From positions 1-64,000 of the forward strand of contig NZ_BMMS01000028.1 in assembly GCF_014646055.1 (NCBI RefSeq): a stretch of DNA of 64,000 nucleotides, given 5' to 3'. The position numbers were made by a program, and so were the translations under genes. This document shows positions 51,535 to 64,000 of the stretch, in pieces; the stretch's first letter is position 1; each line of letters starts with the position of its first letter. Origin of the DNA: Wenjunlia tyrosinilytica (GTDB taxonomy: Bacteria > Actinomycetota > Actinomycetes > Streptomycetales > Streptomycetaceae). Below the pieces are notes generated by a model. The model made no database searches. It worked only from the letters and a program-made list of their open reading frames with translations, and was not told the origin of the DNA.

Positions 51535-52686
51535 ATGCACGTTCTGCATGTCATCGACAGTGTGAGCCGCACCGGGGGCGCCGAGCAGGCACTGGCCGCC
51601 ACAGCGCCGCTGCTCGTGCGCTCCGGGGTGCGGCTGGACATCGCGTATCTGCTGCCCAGGGAGGGGCTCCAGGAACAGCTGGCCGCGGCCGGGGCCGCGC
51701 TGTTCTGCGTCCACCGGCCGGACCGGCTGCGCACGGCGGCGGCGCTGCGCTCGCTGATCAGGCGACGGCGGCCGGACATCGTTCACACCACGCTGTTCGA
51801 GGCGGATCTGCTGGGCCGGGCGGCCGCCAACGCGGCGCGGGTGCCCGTCGTCTCCAGCCTGGTCAACTCCTCGTACGGTCCCGAGCACCTCTCGTCCCCG
51901 GGACTTCAGCCCTGGAAGGTGCGCGCCGCCCAGGCGGCGGACGCCGCGACCGCGGTGGGGGTGCGCCGCTTCCACGCGCTCAGCCGCCATGTCGCCTCGG
52001 TGATGGCGAAACGGCTGGCGGTCCCCTCACACAGGATCGATGTGATCCCGCGCGGCCGGGACCCCGAGCTGCTGGGGACGGCGACCCCGCAGCGCCGGGC
52101 GGCCGTACGGGCGGCGCTGGGGCTGGACGCGCAGACCCCGGTGGTGCTGGCGGCGGCCAGGCAGCAGTACCAGAAGGGCCTCGACGTGCTGGTGGGCTGC
52201 TGGCCGATGCTTCGCGAACGGGTGGACGACGCGGTCCTTCTGCTCGCCGGCTGCGAGGGCGCCCAGACGCCTAAGCTGCGTTCCCTGGCGGCGGGGGACC
52301 CCTCGGTGGTCTTCCTCGGCCAGCGTTCCGACGTCTACGACCTCATGGCCGCCTCCGACGCGTTCGCGGTGCCCTCGCGCTGGGAGGGACTCGGCAGCGC
52401 GGCGATGGAGGCCATGGGTGTGGGGGTGCCGCTGGTGGCGTCGGACGTCCCCGCGCTGCGCGAGACCGTCGGATCGGAGGGGCACGCGCTGCTCGTCCCC
52501 TCCGAGCGCCCCGAGGAGTTGCACGACGCCCTCCTGGACACGCTCACGCACCGCGAGGCCGCGCACAAGCGGGCCGCGGCGGCCCGGGAGCACTTCCTGC
52601 GCCACTACACCCTCGAGCAGGTCACCGCGGAGATGATCGCCTTCTACCGCGGGGTGCTGGCCCGCGGACCGGAACGCCGCCTGTGA
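51535..52686 (+). CDS. Glycosyltransferase family 4
   Basis: This 383-residue GT-B enzyme has MHVLHVIDSVSRTGGAEQAL at the N-terminus, DIVHTTLFEADLLGR, VIPRGRDPELLG, VVLAAARQQYQKGLDVL and the donor motif SRWEGLGSAAMEAMGVGVP (E-x7-E). It is the first gene of the plus-strand unit leading through the Wzz-like protein to the aminotransferase. ATG 51535 follows a G-rich Shine-Dalgarno. Reading further upstream only follows the antisense of TerD. Confidence 0.9.
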   Translation: MHVLHVIDSVSRTGGAEQALAATAPLLVRSGVRLDIAYLLPREGLQEQLAAAGAALFCVHRPDRLRTAAALRSLIRRRRPDIVHTTLFEADLLGRAAANAARVPVVSSLVNSSYGPEHLSSPGLQPWKVRAAQAADAATAVGVRRFHALSRHVASVMAKRLAVPSHRIDVIPRGRDPELLGTATPQRRAAVRAALGLDAQTPVVLAAARQQYQKGLDVLVGCWPMLRERVDDAVLLLAGCEGAQTPKLRSLAAGDPSVVFLGQRSDVYDLMAASDAFAVPSRWEGLGSAAMEAMGVGVPLVASDVPALRETVGSEGHALLVPSERPEELHDALLDTLTHREAAHKRAAAAREHFLRHYTLEQVTAEMIAFYRGVLARGPERRL

Positions 52687-52755
52687 CGTGTGAACGCCTG
52701 AACACGTCTCGTTATCGCCAAAGTGCTTGCGCGGCGGCGCCATTCGGGGCAAGCA
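52685..52755. promoter_or_regulatory. Two stem-loops between glycosyltransferase and Wzz-like gene
   Basis: GACGTGT (52685-52691) pairs with ACACGTC (52702-52708) directly at the stop codon. TGCTTGC (52724-52730) pairs with GCAAGCA (52749-52755). Either may end or attenuate transcription before the next gene, or be an operator. Confidence 0.4.
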
Positions 52756-52854
52756 TCGCAAAGGGACGGACCACTCGAGTCCGTGGGGGCGGGCTGGGCG
52801 GTGCGACGCGGTGAGCGGCGCGGCGCTCGACGAGGAAGACCCGGGGGGCCACCG

Positions 52855-54615
52855 GTGGAACCTGCACAGCACTTGAGCGTCCTTCGTCGGCGCTGGCGAC
52901 TGCTGGCGGGCTGTGTGCTGGCCGCGCTGGTCGTCGGCTGGTGGCTGACGCCCGCGAGCCAGGGGCGGGACGAGAGCGCGTGGCAGTCCACGCTCACGGT
53001 GGTGCCCGCGCCGGGGTCGGAGGACTCGGTCAAGCTGGACGTGGTGCGCACCTTCGCCACCAGCGAGCAGGTCACGGCGGACGCCGCCAAGCGGCTGGGG
53101 CTCAAGGACCCGGCGGTCCTCAAGCCCAGGGTGGACATCTCGGCCGACGCCGAGGCGGGCATGATCACGATAACGGCGACGGGGGCGACCCAGCACGACT
53201 CCGAGGCGGTCGCGGGCGCGTTCGCCAAGGCCATGGTGCAGGGCTACCGCAAGAGCCTGCGTGACAGCGCCATGACCTCCGCCGACGAGCGCAGCAAGCA
53301 GCTCAAGTCGCTCGGGGACGACATCACGTCGATGCAGGACGACCTCAACGCGTCCCTGGGCTCACGCCGTACGCAGATCAAGGCGCAGTTGGACTCGCTC
53401 AACGGGCAGTACAGCGACCTGTACTCCACGATCGCCAAGCTGCGGCAGACCGCGAGGGCGCCGGTGCTCGAGCAGTTCGGCGGCATCAACAGCACGGCGA
53501 GCAGCGGCAGTGTGCTCAGCGCCCCGAGCAGCCGTTCGGCGCGCCTGGCCCTGGCGGCCGCGCTGGGACTGGCGCTCGGGCTGGTCGCGGTGCTGATGCT
53601 GGACCGGCTCGACACCCGGCTGCGCAGCCGCTCGCAGGCCGAGGAGGCGTTCGGCTTCCCGGTGATCGGGGAGATACCCGTGATGTCGCGCAGGCTCCGC
53701 CGCTCGCGCGTACCGGCGGTGGCCTCGAGTCCGGGGGCTCCGGCGGCGGAGGCGTACCGGGCGCTGCGGGCGGCGCTGCTGCTGACCGCTCCGTCGTCGC
53801 TGGCCTTTCCCATCGGCGGGCGGCGGGACGACCGCTCCTCGCTGCCGAGGCTGCCGCAGACCGCGCCTGTGGTGCTGGTGGTCTCCGCGCGGCCGGGCGA
53901 CGGCAGGACGACGACGGTCGCGGAACTGGCGGCCGCGCTCGCGGAGACGGGCCGCTCGGTGCTCGTCCTCGACTGCGACTTCCGGGGCTCGCGGGCCCAT
54001 GAGCTCCTGGGTGTGGAGCCGGGGCCCGGGATGGCCGAACTCCTCGGCGGGGACGGCGCGGAGGGCCTGAAGGAGGCGATCAGGCCGACCCGGGTGGAGC
54101 GGGTGGGCCTGGTGACGGCGGGCAGGCACTCCGGCTATCCGGCCGCGCTCGTGGTGCGGGCGGACGAGGTGCTCGACGAGGCGCGCAAGCACGCCGACGT
54201 GGTCCTCGTCGACAGCTCGCCCCTGCTGTACGCCAATGACTCCTACGACCTGGTCGGGCACGCGGACACCGTCCTGCTGACCGCGCGCAGCAGCCATGTG
54301 ACTCCCGAACAGGCGGGGCGCGTCGGCGAGTTGCTGGCCCGTACCAGTGTGCCGGTGGCCGGTATCGCGCTGACCGCCTCTCCCGGGTCGCCGGGAAGCT
54401 CCCCGTGGATCACCCGGCGCCCGTCCGAGACGGTCACCACGGGCGCCGTCACCCCTTTCCCGGCGATGGGCCCGGGCCTGGTGCGCGATCAGGACCGCTC
54501 CCGCGCCCAACCGCCCCGCCAGACGGCGGAGGCGGACCCGCCGGACCGGGGCGGGCCGAGCTGGGCCCTGGGCCGGGACGGCACCGCGCCGAAGGCGGAG
54601 GGCGACGACCTGTGA
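52855..54615 (+). CDS. Wzz/BY-kinase-like polysaccharide chain-length protein
   Basis: This 586-residue protein has a Wzz domain with two membrane segments (about 15-31 and 231-249) around a helical extracellular part, followed by a CpsD/CapB-like cytoplasmic P-loop domain. Walker A is SARPGDGRTTT (344-354), Walker A' is VLVLDCDF (369-376) and Walker B is VVLVDSS (449-455). The usual Walker A lysine is Arg351, and the tail lacks a tyrosine cluster. It probably sets chain length and interacts with the export machinery; kinase activity is doubtful. GTG 52855 has GGGGGG eight bases upstream. Its stop overlaps the next start (GTGA). Confidence 0.88.
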   Translation: MEPAQHLSVLRRRWRLLAGCVLAALVVGWWLTPASQGRDESAWQSTLTVVPAPGSEDSVKLDVVRTFATSEQVTADAAKRLGLKDPAVLKPRVDISADAEAGMITITATGATQHDSEAVAGAFAKAMVQGYRKSLRDSAMTSADERSKQLKSLGDDITSMQDDLNASLGSRRTQIKAQLDSLNGQYSDLYSTIAKLRQTARAPVLEQFGGINSTASSGSVLSAPSSRSARLALAAALGLALGLVAVLMLDRLDTRLRSRSQAEEAFGFPVIGEIPVMSRRLRRSRVPAVASSPGAPAAEAYRALRAALLLTAPSSLAFPIGGRRDDRSSLPRLPQTAPVVLVVSARPGDGRTTTVAELAAALAETGRSVLVLDCDFRGSRAHELLGVEPGPGMAELLGGDGAEGLKEAIRPTRVERVGLVTAGRHSGYPAALVVRADEVLDEARKHADVVLVDSSPLLYANDSYDLVGHADTVLLTARSSHVTPEQAGRVGELLARTSVPVAGIALTASPGSPGSSPWITRRPSETVTTGAVTPFPAMGPGLVRDQDRSRAQPPRQTAEADPPDRGGPSWALGRDGTAPKAEGDDL

Positions 54616-55850
54616 CCGACCGACCTGTGACCGACGGACCCGTGACCGACGCGGCCGGGATCGAAGCGGCTGTGACCGACAGGCCCCTGACCGACGGCGG
54701 GAGGCCGGTGCGGGTGCTCTGGCTCGCCAAGGGGCTCGGCCTCGGGGGCGCGGAGCGCCTGCTGCTCAACTGCGCGCGCCATGTCGACCGGGAGCGCTTC
54801 GAGGTGGAGGTCGCCTACGTCCTGCCGTGGAAGGACGCCCTGGCGCCGGATCTGGAGAAGGCGGGGATACCGGTGCACCTGCTGACCGGCGCTCCCGGCC
54901 GGCGCGGCCGGGACCCTTTGTGGCCGCTGCGGCTGCGCTCGCTCATGGCCCAGCGCCGCTACGGGCTGGTGCACACGCACATGCCCGTGCCCGCCGTCGC
55001 GGCCCGGATGCTGCTGCGCGGGCCCCTGTCGGTGCCGCTGGTGCACACCGAGCACAACATGTGGCAGCGCTACCGCCTGCCGACCCGGATCGCCAACTCT
55101 TGGACGTACGGGCGCAACGCGGCCGTGGTCGCGGTCTCGCGGGCAGTGGCCGCGAGCGTGCGGCCGCCCCGGCGGGTCGACCCCGGGCAGTGGCTGAACG
55201 TGGTGCACCACGGCCCCGACCTCGGCGGGGCGGCCGGGGGCGCGCAGGCCCGCGCCGAGGCCCGTGAGGCCCTTGGGCTGCCCCGCGAGGGCGTCGTCGT
55301 CGGCACGGTGGGCAACCTCACCGCCAAGAAGGACCAGCGCACCCTGCTCGACGCCTTCGCCCTCATGCGCCGCAACCACCCGGAGGCGGCGCTGGTGCTC
55401 ATCGGCTCCGGCCCGTTGGAGGAGCGGCTGCGCCGGCACGCCTCGTCGCTGGGGCTCGACGGCACCGCGGTCTTCGCGGGATCCCGGCCGGACGTCCCCG
55501 CGTTGCTGCCCGCGCTGGACGTGTTCACCCTCAGCTCGCGCCAGGAGGGGCTGCCGGTGGCGCTCATGGAGGCGATGGCCTCCGGACTGCCCTCGGTCGT
55601 CACCCGCGTCGGCGGTATGCCGGAGATCGTGGACCAGGGGGTGGAAGGGCTGCTGGTGCAGCCGGGAGACGCCGAGGCGCTGTCCGTCGCGCTGGGCCGG
55701 CTCGTCGGCGGTCCGGCGCTGCGAGCCCGGATGTCGGCGGCCGCCCGGGAGCGCGCGCGGCGCTTCGACGCCGAGGGCGCGCAGCGCCGCATCGAGGCCG
55801 TCTACGAGCAGGTTCTGGCGGGGCGGCGGAGCACGGGGGTCACCGCGTGA
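54612..55850 (+). CDS. Glycosyltransferase family 4
   Basis: This GT-B enzyme of up to 412 residues has VRVLWLAKGLGLGGAERLLL, LVHTHMPVPAVAARM, HTEHNMWQRYRLPTR, VGTVGNLTAKKDQRTLLDA and the donor motif SRQEGLPVALMEAMASGLP (E-x7-E). The start is ambiguous: GTGACCGAC occurs in frame four times (54612, 54627, 54642, 54672), each a possible initiation site. The first overlaps the upstream TGA as GTGA. The stop likewise overlaps the GNAT gene, so translation is coupled along this unit. Confidence 0.9.
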   Translation: MTDRPVTDGPVTDAAGIEAAVTDRPLTDGGRPVRVLWLAKGLGLGGAERLLLNCARHVDRERFEVEVAYVLPWKDALAPDLEKAGIPVHLLTGAPGRRGRDPLWPLRLRSLMAQRRYGLVHTHMPVPAVAARMLLRGPLSVPLVHTEHNMWQRYRLPTRIANSWTYGRNAAVVAVSRAVAASVRPPRRVDPGQWLNVVHHGPDLGGAAGGAQARAEAREALGLPREGVVVGTVGNLTAKKDQRTLLDAFALMRRNHPEAALVLIGSGPLEERLRRHASSLGLDGTAVFAGSRPDVPALLPALDVFTLSSRQEGLPVALMEAMASGLPSVVTRVGGMPEIVDQGVEGLLVQPGDAEALSVALGRLVGGPALRARMSAAARERARRFDAEGAQRRIEAVYEQVLAGRRSTGVTA

Positions 55851-56938
55851 ACCGGGGCGCGGCGGACTCCGGGGGGACGCCCGAGGGGTTAGAGATACGG
55901 GAGTTGGCGGCCGCCGACGAGCCCGAGGTGCTCGGTCTGCTCAGCACGTCGCTGGCGGGCGGCCCCACCGGGGAGCGCACCTCGGCGTTCTTCTCCTGGA
56001 AGCACCGGCGAGGGGTCTTCGGGCCGAGCCCCGGTCTGGTGGCGGTGGCCGACGGCAGGGTGGTCGGCCTGCGGCTCTTCCTGCGCTGGGAGTTCACCCT
56101 GTCCGGCAGGACGGTCCGGGCGGTGCGCCCGGTGGACACCGCCACCCATCCGGACTTCCGGGGCCGCGGCATCTTCCGCGCGCTCACGCTGGATCTGCTC
56201 GAACAGGTCGCCTCCGGCACCGATGTGGTCTTCAACACCCCCAACGCGAACAGCCTGCCCGGCTATCTGCGGATGGGCTGGCGGCGGGCGGGCACCGTGC
56301 CGATCGCCGTCCGCCCCGTCAGACCGGGTGCCTTCGCCGCGGGCCTGGGAGGCCAGCTCTCCCGGCTGCGCGGCGGCCCGCCCCGCCCGGGGGCGGCCTC
56401 GGCCCGCGCGACGGCACCCGGGGCCCGTTGCGCCCTGCCGGGCGCCGCGGAGGTCGTCGCTGCCGCGTCCGGGCTCAAGGAACTGCTGCGCGAGCGGGCC
56501 GAGGGGGACGAGCGCGCCCGGCCCGCCCGCCTGGGCACCGAGCGGACCCCGGACTTCCTGCGCTGGCGCTACGCCGAGGCCCCCGGTCTGGACTACCGCG
56601 CGGTGACGGTGGAGCGCGCGGGAGAGCTCGCCGGGATCGCCTTCTGCCGGCCCCGCGCACGAGGCGGACTCACCGAACTCACCCTGTCCGACGTGGTGGT
56701 GCGCCCGGGCGACCGGGAGGCCGCGGCCCGCCTGCTGGCCTCGGTGGCCCGCGGTGGCGGCTGCGACCACGTCGCCACCCACCTCGCCGAGGGCGGCGAG
56801 GCGGCGTCGGTGGGGCTGCGCCACGGGTATCTGCCGGTGCCGCGCGCCGGGATGGTGCTCGCCGTGCGGCCGGCCGGGCAGGAGCCGCCACGGGTCCACG
56901 GCTGGCGGTTCACCCTCGGCGACCTCGAGGTCTTCTGA
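55847..56938 (+). CDS. GNAT-family N-acetyltransferase
   Basis: This 363-residue protein has an N-terminal GNAT domain (about 16-150) with DTATHPDFRGRGIFRALT, the acetyl-CoA pyrophosphate loop (R-G-x-G-I/F), and a second, weaker GNAT-like half (LSDVVVRPGDREAAARLLAS). It could acetylate an amino sugar of the polymer. Codon 15 is TTA (55889-55891). Its GTG overlaps the upstream stop (GTGA). Confidence 0.85.
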   Translation: MNRGAADSGGTPEGLEIRELAAADEPEVLGLLSTSLAGGPTGERTSAFFSWKHRRGVFGPSPGLVAVADGRVVGLRLFLRWEFTLSGRTVRAVRPVDTATHPDFRGRGIFRALTLDLLEQVASGTDVVFNTPNANSLPGYLRMGWRRAGTVPIAVRPVRPGAFAAGLGGQLSRLRGGPPRPGAASARATAPGARCALPGAAEVVAAASGLKELLRERAEGDERARPARLGTERTPDFLRWRYAEAPGLDYRAVTVERAGELAGIAFCRPRARGGLTELTLSDVVVRPGDREAAARLLASVARGGGCDHVATHLAEGGEAASVGLRHGYLPVPRAGMVLAVRPAGQEPPRVHGWRFTLGDLEVF

Positions 56939-56961
56939 TGGCTGTGACGGCGGTCCTGTGA
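56938..56961 (+). other. Seven-codon minicistron between two coupled genes
   Basis: The TGA of the GNAT gene overlaps an ATG (TGATG), which reads MAVTAVL and then stops at a TGA that itself overlaps the ATG of the next gene. This would let ribosomes re-initiate twice across a 22-base gap. It may be a true leader peptide or an accident of sequence. Confidence 0.4.
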
Positions 56962-58493
56962 TGGTGCGGCAGTTCCTGGCGCGGACGGGACGAAGACCCC
57001 GGCTGCCGGAGATCCCCTGGCCCTCGCTCATGGCGGGCTCCCTGGTCACCGCCTATGTCGCCGTCTTCGTCTGGGGCATGGAGCACACCTCCTACGACAC
57101 GTGGGGGGCGCTGCTGATCCTGCCGCTCCTCATGGCCGTCAGCGCCCCGTTCATCGGCCGGATCGCGGCACGCGACCCCGATCCGCGCACCTACCGGCTG
57201 CTGATGCTCGCCCTGGCCTTCAAGCTCGTGGCGGCCTTCCCGCGCTTCCTCATGGCCTTCGTGCTCTACGACGGTCAGTCGGACGCGGCGATGTACGACG
57301 ACAAGGGCCGCGTGCTCGCGGCGCTCTTCCGGCACGGCGTCTTCCAGGCGGACATCGGGCGGCCGGTGGAGGGCACCGGGTTCGTCATCATCCTCACCGG
57401 GATCGCCTACACCCTGGTCGGGCCGTCCATCAGCGGAGGGTTCCTGTTCTTCTCCTGGCTGGGGTTCTGGGGCCTGGTGATGTTCTGGCGGGCCGTGCAG
57501 ATCGGCTTCCCCGCCGCCGACAGCCGCCGCTACGCGCTGTTCGTCTTCTTCCTGCCGTCGCTGCTGTTCTGGCCGTCGAGCATCGGCAAGGACTCGTGGA
57601 TGATGCTGACGCTGGGCGTCATGGCCTACGGGGCGGCCCGGGTGCTGCGCCGGATGCACGGCGGATTCGCGGTGCTGGCGCTGGGCTCGGTGGGCACGGC
57701 CATGGTGCGCCCGCACATCACCCTGCTGGCGGGCGCCGGACTCGGCGTCGCGTACCTGCTCAGGCGCCGCCCGGACAAGGTCTCCGCGCTGGGGCCGATC
57801 AAGGCGGTCGCGGGCATCGCCGTGATGGGCGTGGGGATCATGCTGATGCTCCAGCAGGCCAGCGCCTTCTTCGGGTTGGACGGCACGGACTCGCAGGGCG
57901 TCTCCCAGGTGCTGTCGGAGACTCAGCGGCGCACCTCGCAGGGCGGTTCCGCCGCGGTGGACGCCTCCGGGGAGGCGGCCGGGTCCGGACCGCCGGTGAA
58001 CCTGTCGCCGGTGAACCTGCCGATGAACGTGGTCACGGTCCTGTTCCGCCCGTTCCCCTTCGAGGCGCACAACGTCCAGGCGCTCGTCGCGTCCGTGGAG
58101 TGCTTCGCCCTGATGATCGTGTTCATCATGTCGTGGGCGAGGCTGCGACGGCTTCCCAAGCTGTTCCTCAAAGAGCCCTACATCGCCTTCACGGCCGTGT
58201 ACTCCCTGCTGTTCTGCTGGGCCTTCTCCAACATCAACAACCTGGGCATCCTCACGCGGGAGCGGGTGCAGGTTCTGCCCTTGGTCCTGGTGCTGCTGGC
58301 GATTCCGCGGCGTGCTCCGGAGGCGGGCACGGCCCGGGGCGCGGCCCGCTCCCAGCCCCTGGCCGGCCCGCACCCGCCGGGCCCTGCGGGGCCGGGCGGC
58401 CCGAGAGCCCCGGCCGGCCCGCACTCGGCGTTCCGGTCCCCACCCCCGCCCAGGCCACGTCGGCCGCACCGACCCCGAGAGGTCTCCCGATGA
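56961..58493 (+). CDS. Multi-spanning membrane protein of the glycan locus
   Basis: This 510-residue protein has about ten transmembrane helices, with FLPSLLFWPSSIGKDSWMMLTLG and AMVRPHITLLAGAG as conspicuous conserved-looking segments. The family is not named with certainty. It resembles large hydrophobic proteins in exopolysaccharide loci that could polymerise, flip or modify lipid-linked glycans. The last 55 residues are Pro/Gly/Ala-rich and cytoplasmic. ATG 56961 or the adjacent in-frame GTG 56958 could start it. Its stop overlaps the aminotransferase start (ATGA). Confidence 0.8.
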   Translation: MVRQFLARTGRRPRLPEIPWPSLMAGSLVTAYVAVFVWGMEHTSYDTWGALLILPLLMAVSAPFIGRIAARDPDPRTYRLLMLALAFKLVAAFPRFLMAFVLYDGQSDAAMYDDKGRVLAALFRHGVFQADIGRPVEGTGFVIILTGIAYTLVGPSISGGFLFFSWLGFWGLVMFWRAVQIGFPAADSRRYALFVFFLPSLLFWPSSIGKDSWMMLTLGVMAYGAARVLRRMHGGFAVLALGSVGTAMVRPHITLLAGAGLGVAYLLRRRPDKVSALGPIKAVAGIAVMGVGIMLMLQQASAFFGLDGTDSQGVSQVLSETQRRTSQGGSAAVDASGEAAGSGPPVNLSPVNLPMNVVTVLFRPFPFEAHNVQALVASVECFALMIVFIMSWARLRRLPKLFLKEPYIAFTAVYSLLFCWAFSNINNLGILTRERVQVLPLVLVLLAIPRRAPEAGTARGAARSQPLAGPHPPGPAGPGGPRAPAGPHSAFRSPPPPRPRRPHRPREVSR

Positions 58494-59725
58494 CGACGAC
58501 CGCAACCGCCCTGCCCGCCGCCCTCGGTGGAACACCCGCGTTCCCGGACGGCCTGCCGCTCACGGTCGTGCGGATCCCCCGGCGTGAGGAGGTGCTGGGG
58601 CGCATCGACGCGATCCTCGCCGACGGGCGGCTGACCAACGGGCGCACCGTGGCCGCCCTGGAGGAGGAGGCGGCCGGGCTGCTGGACGTACCGCACGTCG
58701 TCGCGGTGTCGAACTGCACCTCCGGGCTCATGCTCGTCCTCCAGGCGCTGGAGGTGACCGGACCGGTGGTCATGCCCGGCTTCACGTTCTCCGCCACCGC
58801 GCACGCGGCGGTGTGGGCGGGCAGCAGCCCGGTCTTCGCCGAGTGCTCGGCCGACTCGCTGACCCTGGACCCCGACCACGCGGCGCACACCCTGCGCAAT
58901 GTCGGGGGGACCGCGGTGATGGCCACCCATGTCTACGGGACCCCGTGCCGGGTGGAGCGGCTCCAACAGGCGGCCGACCGGTCGGGGGTGCCGCTGGTCT
59001 ACGACGCGGCGCACGCCTTGGGCAGCCGGCGGGCCGGGGTGCCCGTGGGCGGCTTCGGGGCGGCCGAGGTGTTCAGCATGAGCCCCACCAAGGTGGCGCC
59101 GGCGGGCGAGGGCGGTCTGATCGCCACGCGGAACGAGGCGCTGGCCCGGACCCTGCGGACGGCGCGGGACTACGGCAACCCCGGTGACTACGACTGCCTG
59201 TTCGCGGGATTGAACGCTCGAATGTCGGAGCTGCACGCGGCCGTGGGGCTGGCGTCGCTGTCCGGGCTGACGGAGCGGGTGGCGCACCGGGGGGAGTTGG
59301 CCGCCGTGTTCGCCGAGGAGGTCAAGGGGCTGCCGGGGCTGCGCTTCCCTGTCGTCGACGAGGGGGACACCTCCACGTTCAAGGACCTCACCCTCGTGAT
59401 CGACAGGGAGGAGTTCGGCCTCGACGTCCCGTCGCTGGCCACCGCCCTGGGGGCCGAAGGCATCGACACCCGGCGCTACTTCCACCCCCCGGTGCACCGC
59501 CAGAAGGCGTACCGGGCGCTCGGGCAGGCCGACCGCCTGCCCCTCACCGACGCCCTGTCGGCAGCCGTGCTCACGGTCCCGCTGTGGTCGCACATGACGG
59601 CTGGGACGATGCGCCGCACAGCGGCCGCGGTGGCGAGGATCCAGGACCACGCGGACGAGGTGCGCGCGGCACTGCTCGGTGGTGCGCACGGCCCTCACCA
59701 GGACGTTCGACCGGCCGTCGAGTGA
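58490..59725 (+). CDS. DegT/DnrJ/EryC1-family sugar aminotransferase
   Basis: This 411-residue PLP enzyme has VSNCTSGLMLVLQAL, PVVMPGFTFSATAHA, YDAAHALGSRRAG and FSMSPTKVAPAGEGGLIAT, where the lysine of SPTK is the PLP-binding residue, then NARMSELHAAVGLASL. Members transfer an amino group to a keto-sugar nucleotide such as a 4-keto-6-deoxy sugar. It ends the plus-strand unit (ATGA overlap with the membrane protein). No 4,6-dehydratase is in the window, so its substrate must come from elsewhere. Confidence 0.92.
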   Translation: MTTTATALPAALGGTPAFPDGLPLTVVRIPRREEVLGRIDAILADGRLTNGRTVAALEEEAAGLLDVPHVVAVSNCTSGLMLVLQALEVTGPVVMPGFTFSATAHAAVWAGSSPVFAECSADSLTLDPDHAAHTLRNVGGTAVMATHVYGTPCRVERLQQAADRSGVPLVYDAAHALGSRRAGVPVGGFGAAEVFSMSPTKVAPAGEGGLIATRNEALARTLRTARDYGNPGDYDCLFAGLNARMSELHAAVGLASLSGLTERVAHRGELAAVFAEEVKGLPGLRFPVVDEGDTSTFKDLTLVIDREEFGLDVPSLATALGAEGIDTRRYFHPPVHRQKAYRALGQADRLPLTDALSAAVLTVPLWSHMTAGTMRRTAAAVARIQDHADEVRAALLGGAHGPHQDVRPAVE

Positions 59726-59902: not shown

Positions 59903-60382
59903 ATGACCTCCCCCCGCGGCACCTACGGCGGCGGCTACTACGCCTCGTCGGCCTTCTTCCCCGACACCCCGATCTACGACAGGCTCGTCGCCGAGCGGGG
60001 CACTCCGCAGATCGCTCCCATCCGCGTCCCCTCGGCCTACGAGGGCAGCAACCTCCCGGCACTGCCGGCGCTGCCCTCCGCGGGCCACTCGTACACGCCT
60101 CCGTACGGCATGCAGAACGGTTACCTCGCGGCCGCGCCGCAGCCCGCTCCCTATCAGCAGCAGGCGGCTCCGACGGCGTACATCCCGCAGCAGGCGGGCG
60201 CGCCCCGAGGCGGGTACACGGCCGGCGCCCCGTACCAGGCCCAGGCCCAGGGCTACACCAACGGCGGCTACGAGACCGGCCCCATGCGCCCCGTCCCGCC
60301 CCGCCCGGTGCCCCCGCGCCAGTCGCCCGCGCCCTACAGCGACGACCCGTACCGCCGCCCCTACCAGGGCCCCGGCTACTGA
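59903..60382 (+). CDS. Tyr/Pro/Gln-rich small protein (DUF6643-like)
   Basis: This 159-residue protein begins MTSPRGTYGGGYYASSAFF and continues with PIYDRLVAERGTPQIAPIRVP, then a Pro/Gln/Ala/Tyr-rich disordered tail ending PYRRPYQGPGY. It matches my recollection of the Streptomyces-conserved DUF6643 family, whose function is unknown. Only the first 55 residues look conserved. It is monocistronic, with its own 177-base upstream region. Confidence 0.78.
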   Translation: MTSPRGTYGGGYYASSAFFPDTPIYDRLVAERGTPQIAPIRVPSAYEGSNLPALPALPSAGHSYTPPYGMQNGYLAAAPQPAPYQQQAAPTAYIPQQAGAPRGGYTAGAPYQAQAQGYTNGGYETGPMRPVPPRPVPPRQSPAPYSDDPYRRPYQGPGY

Positions 60383-60481
60383 CCCGGGTGGGCGCCCGGT
60401 CCGACCGCGAGCGAGCGGCCGGTGTCCGGCCCGAGCAGGGGCCCGGGACCCGCGCCGGGTGCCACCTGGGACGATGGGTCC

Positions 60482-61354
60482 ATGCCAGGACCACGGTCGG
60501 CGTCACGGCCGACACCACAGCCGGATCCAGCGCGGCCTTCGCCGCGGCTGAGCGCGATACACGTCTATCCGGTCAAGTCGGCGGCGGGTTTCGACGCCGG
60601 CGAAGCGGCCGTTGAGCCGTGGGGGCTCGCCGGGGACCGCAGATGGATGGTGGCCCGGCCGGACGGCCGGTTCACGACTCAGCGCGATCACCCGCGCCTG
60701 GCACTGGTGGGCGTGAGCCTGCGCCCGGACGGGTCGCTGGTCCTCGAGGCGCCGGACATGGCGCCGCTGGCCGTGCCGGTTCCCGGGCCCGGGCGGCCGA
60801 CCGTGCCCGTGCAGGTGTGGGGCTCCTCGTTCGAGGCGGTGCCCGCCGACGAGGCGGCCCACGAGTGGTTCACCCGGTACATCGGCGCGGATCTTCGGCT
60901 GATCCATCTCGACGACCCCCTGCGGCGGCCCGTCGACCCGGACTTCGCCCTGCCCGGCGAGACCGTCACCTTCGCCGACGGCTACCCGCTGCTGCTGACC
61001 ACCACCTCCTCGCTGACGGCGCTGAACGACCTGATCACCGAGGAGCACCAGGAGCCCTCGGCGCTGCCGATGGACCGCTTCCGGCCCAATGTGGTGATCG
61101 ACGGGACCGAGGCCTGGGCCGAGGACGGCTGGAAGCGGGTGCGGATCGGGGAGGTCGACTTCCGCGTCGCCAAGCCGTGCGGCCGCTGCGTCGTCACCAC
61201 CATCGACCAGAAGACGGCCCTCAGGGGCGGCGAGCCCCTCAGGACGCTCGGACGCCACCGGCGCTTCGGCAAGGATCTGGTCTTCGGGCAGAACCTGGTG
61301 CCGCAGGGCACGGGGACGCTCCGCCTGGGGGACGGGCTGACCGTCCTGGAGTGA
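60482..61354 (+). CDS. MOSC-domain protein (MOSC N-terminal beta-barrel)
   Basis: This 290-residue protein has the MOSC N-terminal beta-barrel (AIHVYPVKSAAGFDAGEA, WGLAGDRRWMV) and the C-terminal MOSC domain (PMDRFRPNVVIDG, KPCGRCVVTTIDQ with the conserved Cys, GQNLVPQGTG). MOSC proteins handle molybdenum-cofactor sulfur chemistry, as in YcbX- or mARC-type reductases. ATG 60482 is preferred; the longer frame is Pro-rich and not homologous. Confidence 0.92.
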   Translation: MPGPRSASRPTPQPDPARPSPRLSAIHVYPVKSAAGFDAGEAAVEPWGLAGDRRWMVARPDGRFTTQRDHPRLALVGVSLRPDGSLVLEAPDMAPLAVPVPGPGRPTVPVQVWGSSFEAVPADEAAHEWFTRYIGADLRLIHLDDPLRRPVDPDFALPGETVTFADGYPLLLTTTSSLTALNDLITEEHQEPSALPMDRFRPNVVIDGTEAWAEDGWKRVRIGEVDFRVAKPCGRCVVTTIDQKTALRGGEPLRTLGRHRRFGKDLVFGQNLVPQGTGTLRLGDGLTVLE

Positions 61355-61896: not shown

Positions 61897-62060
61897 GGTG
61901 GCGGGCTCCGGGCGGGCGGGTGGTTCCGCGGGGCGGGCGGGCCCGGTAACGACTCGACGCAAAACCGGTCGGTCGGCCGACTCGTGGCCCGCTTCGCCCG
62001 GAGACCCCCGCGGCGCGCGATACCGTGGACCGGCCGGTTCCGCGCGGGGCCTCCTCTGGC

Positions 62061-62159: not shown

Positions 62160-64000
62160 ATGGCACAGAGCGTGGTTCAGGTGACGCATTCGGGCAGTTC
62201 CCGGTGGCGTCGCAGGATAGGTGAGTTCGACACGCTCACGGCCGCCCTCGAGGCGGCGGGCGACGGCGACATCGTGTCGGTGCGTCCCGGCACCTACCAG
62301 GAGAACGTGGTGGTGGCCCGGGCCGTCACGCTGCGCGGTGCGGACGGCCCGGGGACGGTACGGATCGCTCCCGCGGGTGGTGTGGCGCTGACCGTGCGCG
62401 CCTCGGCAACCGTCCAGGACCTCCACGTCGAGGGCCAGGACACCTCGGCGCCCGCCGTTCTCGTCGAGGGTGCCTCTCCCGAGCTGTCCGACGTGCGCGT
62501 GGTGACCCACTCCGCGGTCGGCATAGAGGTGAGGAACGGAGCCAGGCCCACCGTCCGCCGCTGCACCGTGGAGAACCCGGCGGGCCTCGGCGTCAGCGTC
62601 CTCGACCGCTCGGGCGGACTGTTCGAGGAGTGCGAGGTCGTCAGGGCCGGGCAGACCGGCTTCTCGGTGCGCGCGGGCGCCTCGCCCCGTCTTGAGCGCT
62701 GCCGGATCCACCATGCCTCGGGCGCCGGGCTCGCGGTCTCCGGGGAGGAGACCACGGCCGAGGCGGCGGGCTGCGAGATCTACGAGATCACGGGGACGGG
62801 CGTCCAGGTGACCGCGCGGGCCACCGGGCGGCTGGCCGACTGCGAGGTGCACCGCACCAGCGCCGACGGGATCACCCTGGACACCGACGCCGTGCTGACC
62901 ATGACGGACTCCCGGGTGCACGACGTCCCCGAGAACGCGATCGATCTGCGGTCTCGCTCGGTCCTGACGCTGCACCGCACCGCCGTCCGCCGGTTCGGGC
63001 GCAACGGCCTGTCGGTGTGGGACCCCGGCACACGGGTGGACGCCAACGACTGCGAACTCCACGACAGCACCGGCGACTACCCGGCCGTGTGGATCAGCGA
63101 CGGCGCGGTGGCCACGCTCGACTCGTGCCGCGTGCACGACGTCCCGGACGCCCTGTTCGTGCTCGACCGGGGGTCGCGGGCGGACGTGGTGGACAGCGAT
63201 CTGGCGCAGGTGCGCAACACCGCCGTGTCGGTGAGCGACGGCGCCACCGTCCAGCTCGACGACTGCCGGATCCGCGAGGCGGCGACGGGCGCGTGGTTCC
63301 GTGACCACGGAAGCGGCGGCGTGCTGTCGTCGTGCACCATCGAGTCCACCTCGACCGGCGTCATCGTCACCAAGGGTGCCGATCCCACGGTCGAGCGGTG
63401 CACCGTCAGCTCCCCGTCCGAGGCCGGCTTCTACGTCTCCGCGGGCGGGCGGGGCACCTTCCAGGACTGCACGGTCACCGGCAGCCGGGGATACGGCTTC
63501 CATGTGACGGACGGCTCGAGGACCGCCCTGCACCGCTGCCGTACGGAGCGGTGCGCCCGCGGCGGATACGAGTTCGCCGAGGGCGGCGCCGTCGCCGAGG
63601 ACTGCACGAGCGACGAGAGCGCGGAGCGGCGCTCGGTCTCGGCCGACCCGCTTGCCTCGGGGGTGGCAGGCGCCAAGCGCGGCGACCACCACCCGGGCGG
63701 CACCGCGACCGCGGCGCAGAGCGCGCCGGTGGCCCACGGGGTGCTGGGGTCGGTGCCCGCCCAGCGGTCGGCCGAGCCCGAGCCGGCCTCGGCGGGCGCG
63801 CCCGCGACAACGCCCGTCCCGGGGGCGCGCGCGTCGGACGAGGTGCTGGGCGAGCTGGAGGCGCTGGTCGGCCTCACCACCGTCAAGCAGGAGGTGCGAG
63901 CGCTGATCGACCTGATCGCGGTCGGGCGCCGACGGCAGAAGGCCGGGCTCAAGGCGCCCTCCCTGCGGCGGCATCTGGTGTTCACGGGCTCTCCCGGCAC
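62160..64000 (+). CDS. Right-handed beta-helix protein fused to CbxX/EccA-type AAA ATPase (3' truncated)
   Basis: The frame from ATG 62160 is open to the window end (613 codons shown). Residues about 25-480 are parallel beta-helix (PbH1) repeats with recurrent Cys in each turn (for example PTVRRCTVENPAG, DCELHDSTGDY, ERCTVSSPSEAGF). Residues about 485-550 are a Pro/Ala/Glu-rich linker. From about 555 begins an AAA domain (LVGLTTVKQEVRALIDL, then HLVFTGSPG, the start of Walker A). CbxX/SpoVK/EccA-like AAA domains remodel proteins, including type VII secretion substrates. This architecture is conserved in Streptomyces but its role is not established. Confidence 0.85.
   Translation, partial: MAQSVVQVTHSGSSRWRRRIGEFDTLTAALEAAGDGDIVSVRPGTYQENVVVARAVTLRGADGPGTVRIAPAGGVALTVRASATVQDLHVEGQDTSAPAVLVEGASPELSDVRVVTHSAVGIEVRNGARPTVRRCTVENPAGLGVSVLDRSGGLFEECEVVRAGQTGFSVRAGASPRLERCRIHHASGAGLAVSGEETTAEAAGCEIYEITGTGVQVTARATGRLADCEVHRTSADGITLDTDAVLTMTDSRVHDVPENAIDLRSRSVLTLHRTAVRRFGRNGLSVWDPGTRVDANDCELHDSTGDYPAVWISDGAVATLDSCRVHDVPDALFVLDRGSRADVVDSDLAQVRNTAVSVSDGATVQLDDCRIREAATGAWFRDHGSGGVLSSCTIESTSTGVIVTKGADPTVERCTVSSPSEAGFYVSAGGRGTFQDCTVTGSRGYGFHVTDGSRTALHRCRTERCARGGYEFAEGGAVAEDCTSDESAERRSVSADPLASGVAGAKRGDHHPGGTATAAQSAPVAHGVLGSVPAQRSAEPEPASAGAPATTPVPGARASDEVLGELEALVGLTTVKQEVRALIDLIAVGRRRQKAGLKAPSLRRHLVFTGSPG

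Follow-up and report, generated by a model that had tools for sequence, protein, structure and literature searches.

The question raised by the last gene in a 64,000-nucleotide stretch of Wenjunlia tyrosinilytica DNA (the window; bases 1-64000 of the 108,916-base contig NZ_BMMS01000028.1) is what a protein that joins a long right-handed parallel beta-helix to an AAA+ motor does in the cell, and for which client. The gene runs off the window and was completed from the same contig of the organism's own genome. The evidence assembled here favors, with a probability of roughly 60%, a beta-helix-armed AAA+ remodeller that represents the core or housekeeping, single-AAA member of its group, the other members of which probably serve type VII secretion systems (T7SSs) and toxin-like cargo.

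A first-pass annotation, made from the letters of the window, had placed an ATG at position 62160, noted that the gene extends beyond the window end, and read the product as a cysteine-spaced beta-helix fused to a CbxX/EccA-type AAA domain. The gene model holds: the frame remains open on the forward strand through the window end and reaches its stop at contig base 64637, overrunning the window by 637 bases and encoding 825 residues. The fusion is confirmed by Pfam, NCBIfam, and AlphaFold2. Comparisons were made with a set of 101 orthologues, comprising the window protein and sets of 20 and 80 loci, with at least one genome present in both sets (L073, L110) and the 80-locus set leaning toward close relatives. 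The start codon is ATG in 100 of these genes and GTG in one, and TTA codons are absent from all 101. The following features lie inside the window.

62160..64000, forward strand: in-window part of the whole gene, which continues to contig base 64637 (825 amino acids)
62202..62216, forward strand: RWRRR, a basic N-terminal motif (residues 15-19), constant in 101 of 101 orthologues
62217..63614, forward strand: right-handed parallel beta-helix (residues about 20-485) with 23-residue coils and a cysteine ladder, from Pfam, AlphaFold2, and cysteine spacing
63630..63824, forward strand: disordered, unconserved linker (residues 491-555; predicted local distance difference test score, pLDDT, <50)
63834..64000, forward strand: beginning of the AAA+ module (from residue 559), from Pfam, NCBIfam, and motif alignment
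63987..64000, forward strand: first part of the Walker A motif GSPGTGKTT (residues 610-618), split by the window end

The helical arm is supported by several lines of evidence. In the whole protein, Pfam detects Beta_helix (PF13229) in four stretches with an E-value of 3.6e-65, and the score of 218.8 bits against a cut-off of 25.9 places the arm among the right-handed parallel beta-helices. The AlphaFold2 model, built on an alignment of 35 orthologues, bears out the helix whose structure the first-pass annotation had proposed to predict, with block means of 87-99 pLDDT for residues 71-470 and regular short strands mostly above 90. Most of the 14 cysteines of the helix are spaced by 22-25 residues or by roughly a multiple of this distance, with a best-fit period of 23.3; the cysteine spacing is real, because none of 20,000 random placements was as periodic. 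The linker that follows has no invariant residue across 21 diverse orthologues.

The motor belongs to a well-defined clade. AAA (PF00004; E 1.8e-16) and AAA_lid_6 (PF17866; E 3.3e-16) are both present, and together with Walker A and B and the sensor-1 GY signature, which has been described for the SpoVK/CbbX/EccA clade (Delerue et al. 2023, PMC10659427), they assign the protein to that clade. The last 260 residues match the NCBIfam models of SpoVK (E 1.4e-82), CbbX (E 4.3e-71), and EccA (TIGR03922; E 1.2e-70), but all three scores fall below the respective curated cut-offs (276.6 of 422.95, 239.5 of 459.25, and 238.6 of 466.65 bits), so that the protein is assigned to none of the three equivalogs. 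The best match in the PDB is CbbX, both by sequence (3syk and 3zuh; E 8.3e-59 and 9.8e-59) and by fold (E 4.3e-14). The window end cuts through Walker A, and Walker B, sensor 1, the arginine finger, and the lid follow beyond it. Only four of the nine Walker A residues are complete inside the window, whereas the full gene has the complete and conserved motif, in line with the intact Walker motifs that the first-pass annotation had expected of the full-length sequence. All 101 orthologues have G[SA]PGTGKTT as Walker A and VVIVAGY as sensor 1, and all likewise keep Walker B and the SRF arginine.

The gene is almost ubiquitous among the streptomycetes sampled, which contradicts its first description as a rare combination. 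Matches are present in 100 of 101 genomes of the family sample, and helix and AAA module occur at one place in 98 of them (counted by hand); among these 98, eight match as two pieces, six only from about residue 160, and four with one stop inside the match. Two further genomes (G329, G330) have only the AAA part, and one (G304; 5.2 Mb, 93% complete) has no match. When 246 genomes from across the class were sampled, matches starting at residue 1 came from the 22 listed genomes of the same family; other families have partial or paralogue matches at E 1e-60, and 161 genomes have no match. Across the phylum, any match at E 0.001 was found in 121 of 296 genomes; outside the family, among the matches listed, the strong ones cover the AAA part alone and the weak ones either part, and both parts occur only in G205. 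The best 80 of 513 confirmed relatives stem from Streptomyces, except for one each from Actinacidiphila, Streptantibioticus, and "[Kitasatospora]". Among 72,556 plasmid records, 268 match, all with less than 60% identity, so that none was seen as an orthologue.

The relatives of the gene differ from its orthologues in their genomic context. Of 17 loci carrying other AAA relatives, six were matched in an initial search with EccC and Esx-like queries, and all six hold genes encoding both beta-helix and AAA; the same search detected nothing around the window gene or at the orthologue loci. The panel comprised 30 paralogue loci (20 new and ten earlier), 29 of them from the same family; the remaining one, L094, belongs to a different family within the class. 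Using EccB, EccC, EccD, WXG100, and S8-peptidase queries (tblastn, E 1e-4), EccC was detected in 12 of these stretches, EccD in 12, WXG100 in 9, S8 peptidase in 6, and EccB in 3. EccC, EccD, or both are near the paralogue in 14 of the 30 loci but in none of the 100 orthologue loci, none of which has a match to any of the five queries; the same is true of the window and of the 20 kb around the gene. The searches had positive controls in the matches obtained in 15 of the 30 paralogue loci and in the organism's own T7SS locus; 11 of the 100 orthologue loci give a short view (less than 7 kb upstream or less than 5 kb downstream). The gene encoding EccD directly precedes the paralogue in six loci (L096, where it scores over the NCBIfam cut-off, L191, and L195-L198), lies about 1.6-2.2 kb ahead in L202, L204, and L207, and is located elsewhere in L090-L092. 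T7SS genes also adjoin the paralogue in all five annotated plasmid loci inspected (five Streptomyces records), which were picked from the top annotated matches among the 268 matching records. Pfam finds beta-helix and AAA in all eight paralogues scanned, five of which have two AAA modules. In L090-L095, L209, L210, L211, and L214, the beta-helix protein has tandem AAA modules and comprises about 1100 residues; EccC and S8 peptidase are often nearby.

A second type of linkage involves very large genes. In another 14 of the 30 paralogue loci, the paralogue is preceded by a same-strand open reading frame (ORF) of 1800 residues or more, compared with none of the 100 orthologue loci, 10 of which have an upstream sequence too short to reveal a giant ORF. 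All but one of the 14 end inside the open frame of the paralogue or at most 12 bases from it (1.5 kb in L209); the length of the overlap depends on the choice of start, and unambiguous starts give gaps of -4 to 12 bases. The following giant ORFs comprise 2490-2781 residues as fetched, and some run off the stretch.

L190, 2-8347: giant ORF directly upstream of a beta-helix/AAA paralogue
L194, 2-8281: giant ORF directly upstream of a beta-helix/AAA paralogue
L200, 3-8186: giant ORF directly upstream of a beta-helix/AAA paralogue
L203, 11374-19644: giant ORF directly upstream of a beta-helix/AAA paralogue
L106, 11527-18999: giant ORF directly upstream of a beta-helix/AAA paralogue

Among five near-full-length giant ORFs scanned, two end in a Scabin-like domain (PF22596), suggesting that the giant ORFs may encode toxin-like proteins; the remaining three match no Pfam model above its cut-off. 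The paralogues with one or two AAA modules that are located in T7SS loci or behind such genes are probably dedicated cargo chaperones. The secretion chaperone suggested by the first-pass annotation, and the nearby type VII genes for which it proposed to search, are therefore plausible for the wider family and present at many paralogues but are not borne out for the window gene, which has none at its own or its orthologues' loci and persists in genomes without an EccD match.

Orthologues and paralogues share a common motor. A quick maximum-likelihood tree was computed from 78 AAA domains, 72 of them distinct and several coming from genomes already represented. In it, one beta-helix clade with a Shimodaira-Hasegawa-like approximate likelihood ratio test (SH-aLRT) support of 99 comprises the orthologues (99), the single-AAA paralogues (98), and the first (97) and second (99) modules of the tandem forms (AAA1 and AAA2). 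Other AAA proteins of actinobacteria fall outside this clade, as do two EccA-type proteins, including that of the organism's own genome. The latter two serve as root, mycobacterial EccA is not included, and some outgroup branches are long, which leaves the deeper order unsure; nevertheless, the beta-helix motors form one group in this tree. A "TerB-like" label for the N-terminal regions of other actinobacterial AAA relatives was dropped because Pfam detected only AAA in two of them.

The helices diverge at different rates relative to their motors. Among pairs with an AAA identity of 0.7-0.8 (at most 60 pairs sampled per group), the helices of orthologues have an average identity of 0.53 (38 pairs), those of tandem forms 0.48 (5), those of nine EccD-linked single-AAA paralogues 0.44 (21), and those of thirteen giant-linked paralogues 0.40 (38). 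At an AAA identity of 0.8-0.9, the corresponding values are 0.77 for orthologues (21 pairs), 0.67 for EccD-linked (4), and 0.52 for giant-linked copies (7). Lower helix identity in the linked groups is expected if the helix follows its client, and the divergence would fit varied cargo for the linked copies and one steady client for the orthologue. A more far-reaching proposal, which is tentative and falls short of even odds, is that these proteins constitute a separate, streptomycete-type family of beta-helix-armed cargo chaperones, distinct from EccA proper, in which an interchangeable helix would read the cargo. Its copies would serve T7SS substrates or the giant toxin-like proteins encoded directly upstream, and the window gene would be the housekeeping member with an altered pore loop and a conserved client, kept by nearly all streptomycetes, including genomes without a detected T7SS.

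The location of so many paralogues in T7SS loci raises the possibility that the window protein is itself an EccA-like T7SS chaperone, acting in trans on Esx or other substrates encoded elsewhere. The organism does encode EccC and EccD on another contig (contig 13), and EccC_a is over the cut-off in 97 of the 101 family genomes, but with an EccC_a that is nearly universal, co-occurrence with the orthologue says little by itself. This explanation is nevertheless unlikely. Apart from the absence of T7SS genes from all 100 orthologue loci, two genomes (G162 and G381; 100% complete, 90 and 80 contigs) keep a full-length orthologue (76 and 78% identity) but have no EccD match at E 0.001 and only weak EccC_a matches (best E-values 8.0e-75 and 7.0e-113). 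EccD was checked in 12 genomes, chosen to include those with weak EccC; it is over the cut-off in nine, among them G304, the only sampled genome without the orthologue, and a third genome (G303) has only a short EccD fragment (E 1.6e-4). The persistence of the orthologue in G162 and G381 argues that it may work in the absence of a standard T7SS, provided that no diverged system was overlooked in the genomes that lack EccD. Moreover, the organism has a separate EccA-type AAA protein (L037 8867-10861) with an EccA1 N-terminal domain (PF21545; E 9.7e-15), around which the same tblastn queries at E 1e-4 gave no match to T7SS genes. The WXG100 model of Pfam has no match in this genome at E 0.001 and was not used as evidence; small Esx-like ORFs missed by that model were seen by eye near EccC in the T7SS locus (L107 1916-3068).

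The preferred reading is that of a cytosolic AAA+ remodelling machine of the SpoVK/CbbX/EccA clade, which would carry a long, rigid beta-helix in place of the EccA arm and a flexible linker between helix and motor. The arm most likely serves to recruit a single specific client, which AAA modules assembled into a ring would remodel, partly unfold, or activate at the expense of ATP. The client of the core member would lie outside any linked T7SS. The computations bear directly on architecture, intact motifs, conservation, relatedness, and the linkage of the paralogues, whereas ring formation, the cytosolic location, recruitment through the helix, and remodelling are inferences.

Several observations weigh against this remodeller. 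In the AlphaFold2 model, which has a predicted TM-score of 0.61, confidence in the AAA part is only low to moderate, with block means of about 38-88 pLDDT. Pore loop 1 has a histidine in 101 of 101 orthologues where CbbX has a tyrosine (GQYIG). In the RSR pair that follows a conserved asparagine (FRSR in CbbX, LRSR in EccA1), the asparagine and second arginine are kept in the orthologues, but the first arginine, which we take to be the "first arginine finger" of PMC10659427, is replaced by alanine (96), serine (3), or glycine (2). The unusual pore loop and the missing arginine make strong threading by the motor unsure. In addition, the paralogue loci were chosen from high-scoring matches, not at random, and some genomes contribute two or three; two of the 30 (L094, L097) have neither a T7SS gene nor a giant ORF. 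The pairs in the helix comparison are not independent, and weaker constraint alone can yield the same divergence.

The pore loop also speaks for a different kind of machine, in which the AAA ring would be no unfoldase but a switch or scaffold, powered by ATP, that assembles and presents the beta-helices, for instance to bind a glycopolymer or another repetitive assembly. The histidine of the orthologues contrasts with the aromatic residue in other members (tyrosine in 23 of 23 single-AAA paralogues; tyrosine or phenylalanine in seven of seven tandem AAA2 modules), whereas the tandem AAA1 modules have valine, isoleucine, or histidine (seven of seven; L090-L095, L209). Parallel beta-helices often bind polysaccharides, and Foldseek matches the helix to generic right-handed helices, including tailspikes, PL6 lyases, the AlgE4 and AlgG epimerases, and a GH87 enzyme. 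However, Walker A, Walker B, and the sensor-1 GY are kept in all 101 orthologues, the first arginine is also missing from all 37 paralogue AAA domains and from some other clade members (the RSR pair may therefore not define the clade), and histidine can serve in a pore loop, all of which renders a mere switch improbable. A carbohydrate-active beta-helix enzyme regulated by the AAA module is very unlikely, because, despite the lyases, epimerases, and GH87 enzyme among the fold matches, no PDB sequence matches the helix at E 0.01, the one lyase/epimerase Pfam model stays under its cut-off (26.3 of 27 bits), and the fold scores are weak among the 50 matches listed (query-length TM-score 0.44 at best, at most 0.28 for enzymes). 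The Pfam models over their cut-offs in the helix are Beta_helix and NosD (48.8 of 23.6); with 39.2 against 300 bits for NosD_copper_fam, the protein falls outside the NosD subfamily.

The chromosomal surroundings of the gene are conserved among its orthologues. Two neighbors lie upstream in the window.

59903..60382, forward strand: DUF6643 protein of 159 amino acids (PF20348; E 5.2e-40), found close to the gene at 95 of 100 orthologue loci
60422..61354, forward strand: MOSC-domain protein (Pfam), in 83 of 100 orthologue loci

The DUF6643 protein, on which no papers were found in the open-licence literature, is a possible client, but its proximity does not single it out as a partner: a DeoR regulator (91 of 100 loci), CysK (PALP family; 87), a large membrane protein (86), and the MOSC protein are nearly as frequent, and a polyketide-cyclase-like protein is present in 75, so that the near-equal frequencies reflect a conserved chromosomal block and provide no evidence of an interaction. 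The gene is probably transcribed alone, since the downstream gene has the opposite orientation and a gap of about 260 bases separates it from the end of the oxidase-like gene upstream. A TACCGT/TACGGT block (window position about 62021-62026) recurs by eye before the start codon in several orthologues and is possibly a -10 element. Further upstream (52000-59725), two glycosyltransferases, a GNAT protein, a membrane protein without a Pfam match, and a DegT aminotransferase look like the end of a surface polysaccharide cluster. A tie of the gene to this cluster was dropped, and the association with wall genes considered by the first-pass annotation finds no conserved linkage, because only 3 of the 100 orthologue loci have the GNAT-membrane-DegT part.

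These results equip a near-universal streptomycete gene, the relatives of which are annotated only by their beta-helix, with a conserved AAA+ motor and with paralogues in secretion and toxin-like loci, and give a gene of no assigned function a testable job description. They suggest that T7SS and giant-protein systems of these bacteria may use a beta-helix cargo reader instead of the mycobacterial EccA arm. A conserved orthologue next to faster-diverging linked helices would provide a natural experiment on the matching of arm and client in AAA+ chaperones.

Among known systems, the window motor resembles CbbX, the activase of red-type Rubisco, but no Rubisco families are present among the ten neighbor proteins scanned. 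CbbX is not known to carry a beta-helix. SpoVK, the Bacillus sporulation chaperone that activates MurG, is the top NCBIfam match, although under the cut-off; it has a short N-terminal domain and has been reported only in sporulating Firmicutes, according to PMC10659427. The same paper portrays characterized members of the clade as narrow, dedicated chaperones, the varied N-terminal domains of which might recruit substrates, and names a beta-helix among the N-terminal regions of EccA in one clause. The motor clade is known, and the fusion has thus been mentioned in print. The T7SS-linked paralogues are probably the beta-helix EccA-like proteins of that paper, the available text of which describes no core orthologue outside T7SSs, no tandem-AAA form, and no linkage to giant genes.

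In a Streptomyces pan-proteome (2026 study, PMC13118837), right-handed parallel beta-helix proteins (cluster 1451) are syntenic with cysK, as are DeoR/GlpR proteins (cluster 1455). Because this layout of cysK and DeoR matches the neighborhood of the window gene, cluster 1451 is probably the window gene; the accessible portion of that study mentions no AAA module and proposes no function for the cluster. A locus tag for Streptomyces coelicolor, sought via the cysteine synthase SCO0992, was dropped because the gene is not listed in the portion of the source at hand. A description of the streptomycete ESX system (PMC8401907) uses neither the word EccA nor beta-helix in its available text. In the accessible text of open-licence papers, the beta-helix AAA proteins of T7SSs or Streptomyces thus appear only in the clause of PMC10659427 and the synteny of PMC13118837; that literature yielded neither the core orthologue outside T7SSs nor tandem forms nor a linkage to giant genes.

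The closest comparison is that with EccA. No tetratricopeptide repeat (TPR) or EccA1 family is detected by Pfam in the window protein up to E 0.1, and none of the 100 orthologue loci has the T7SS location typical of EccA, whereas 14 of the 30 paralogue loci do. The window protein shares its AAA clade with EccA, the EccA1 structure (9lur) can be aligned with it, and many paralogues of the gene reside in T7SS loci, but the N-terminal domain of EccA1 is replaced by a beta-helix.
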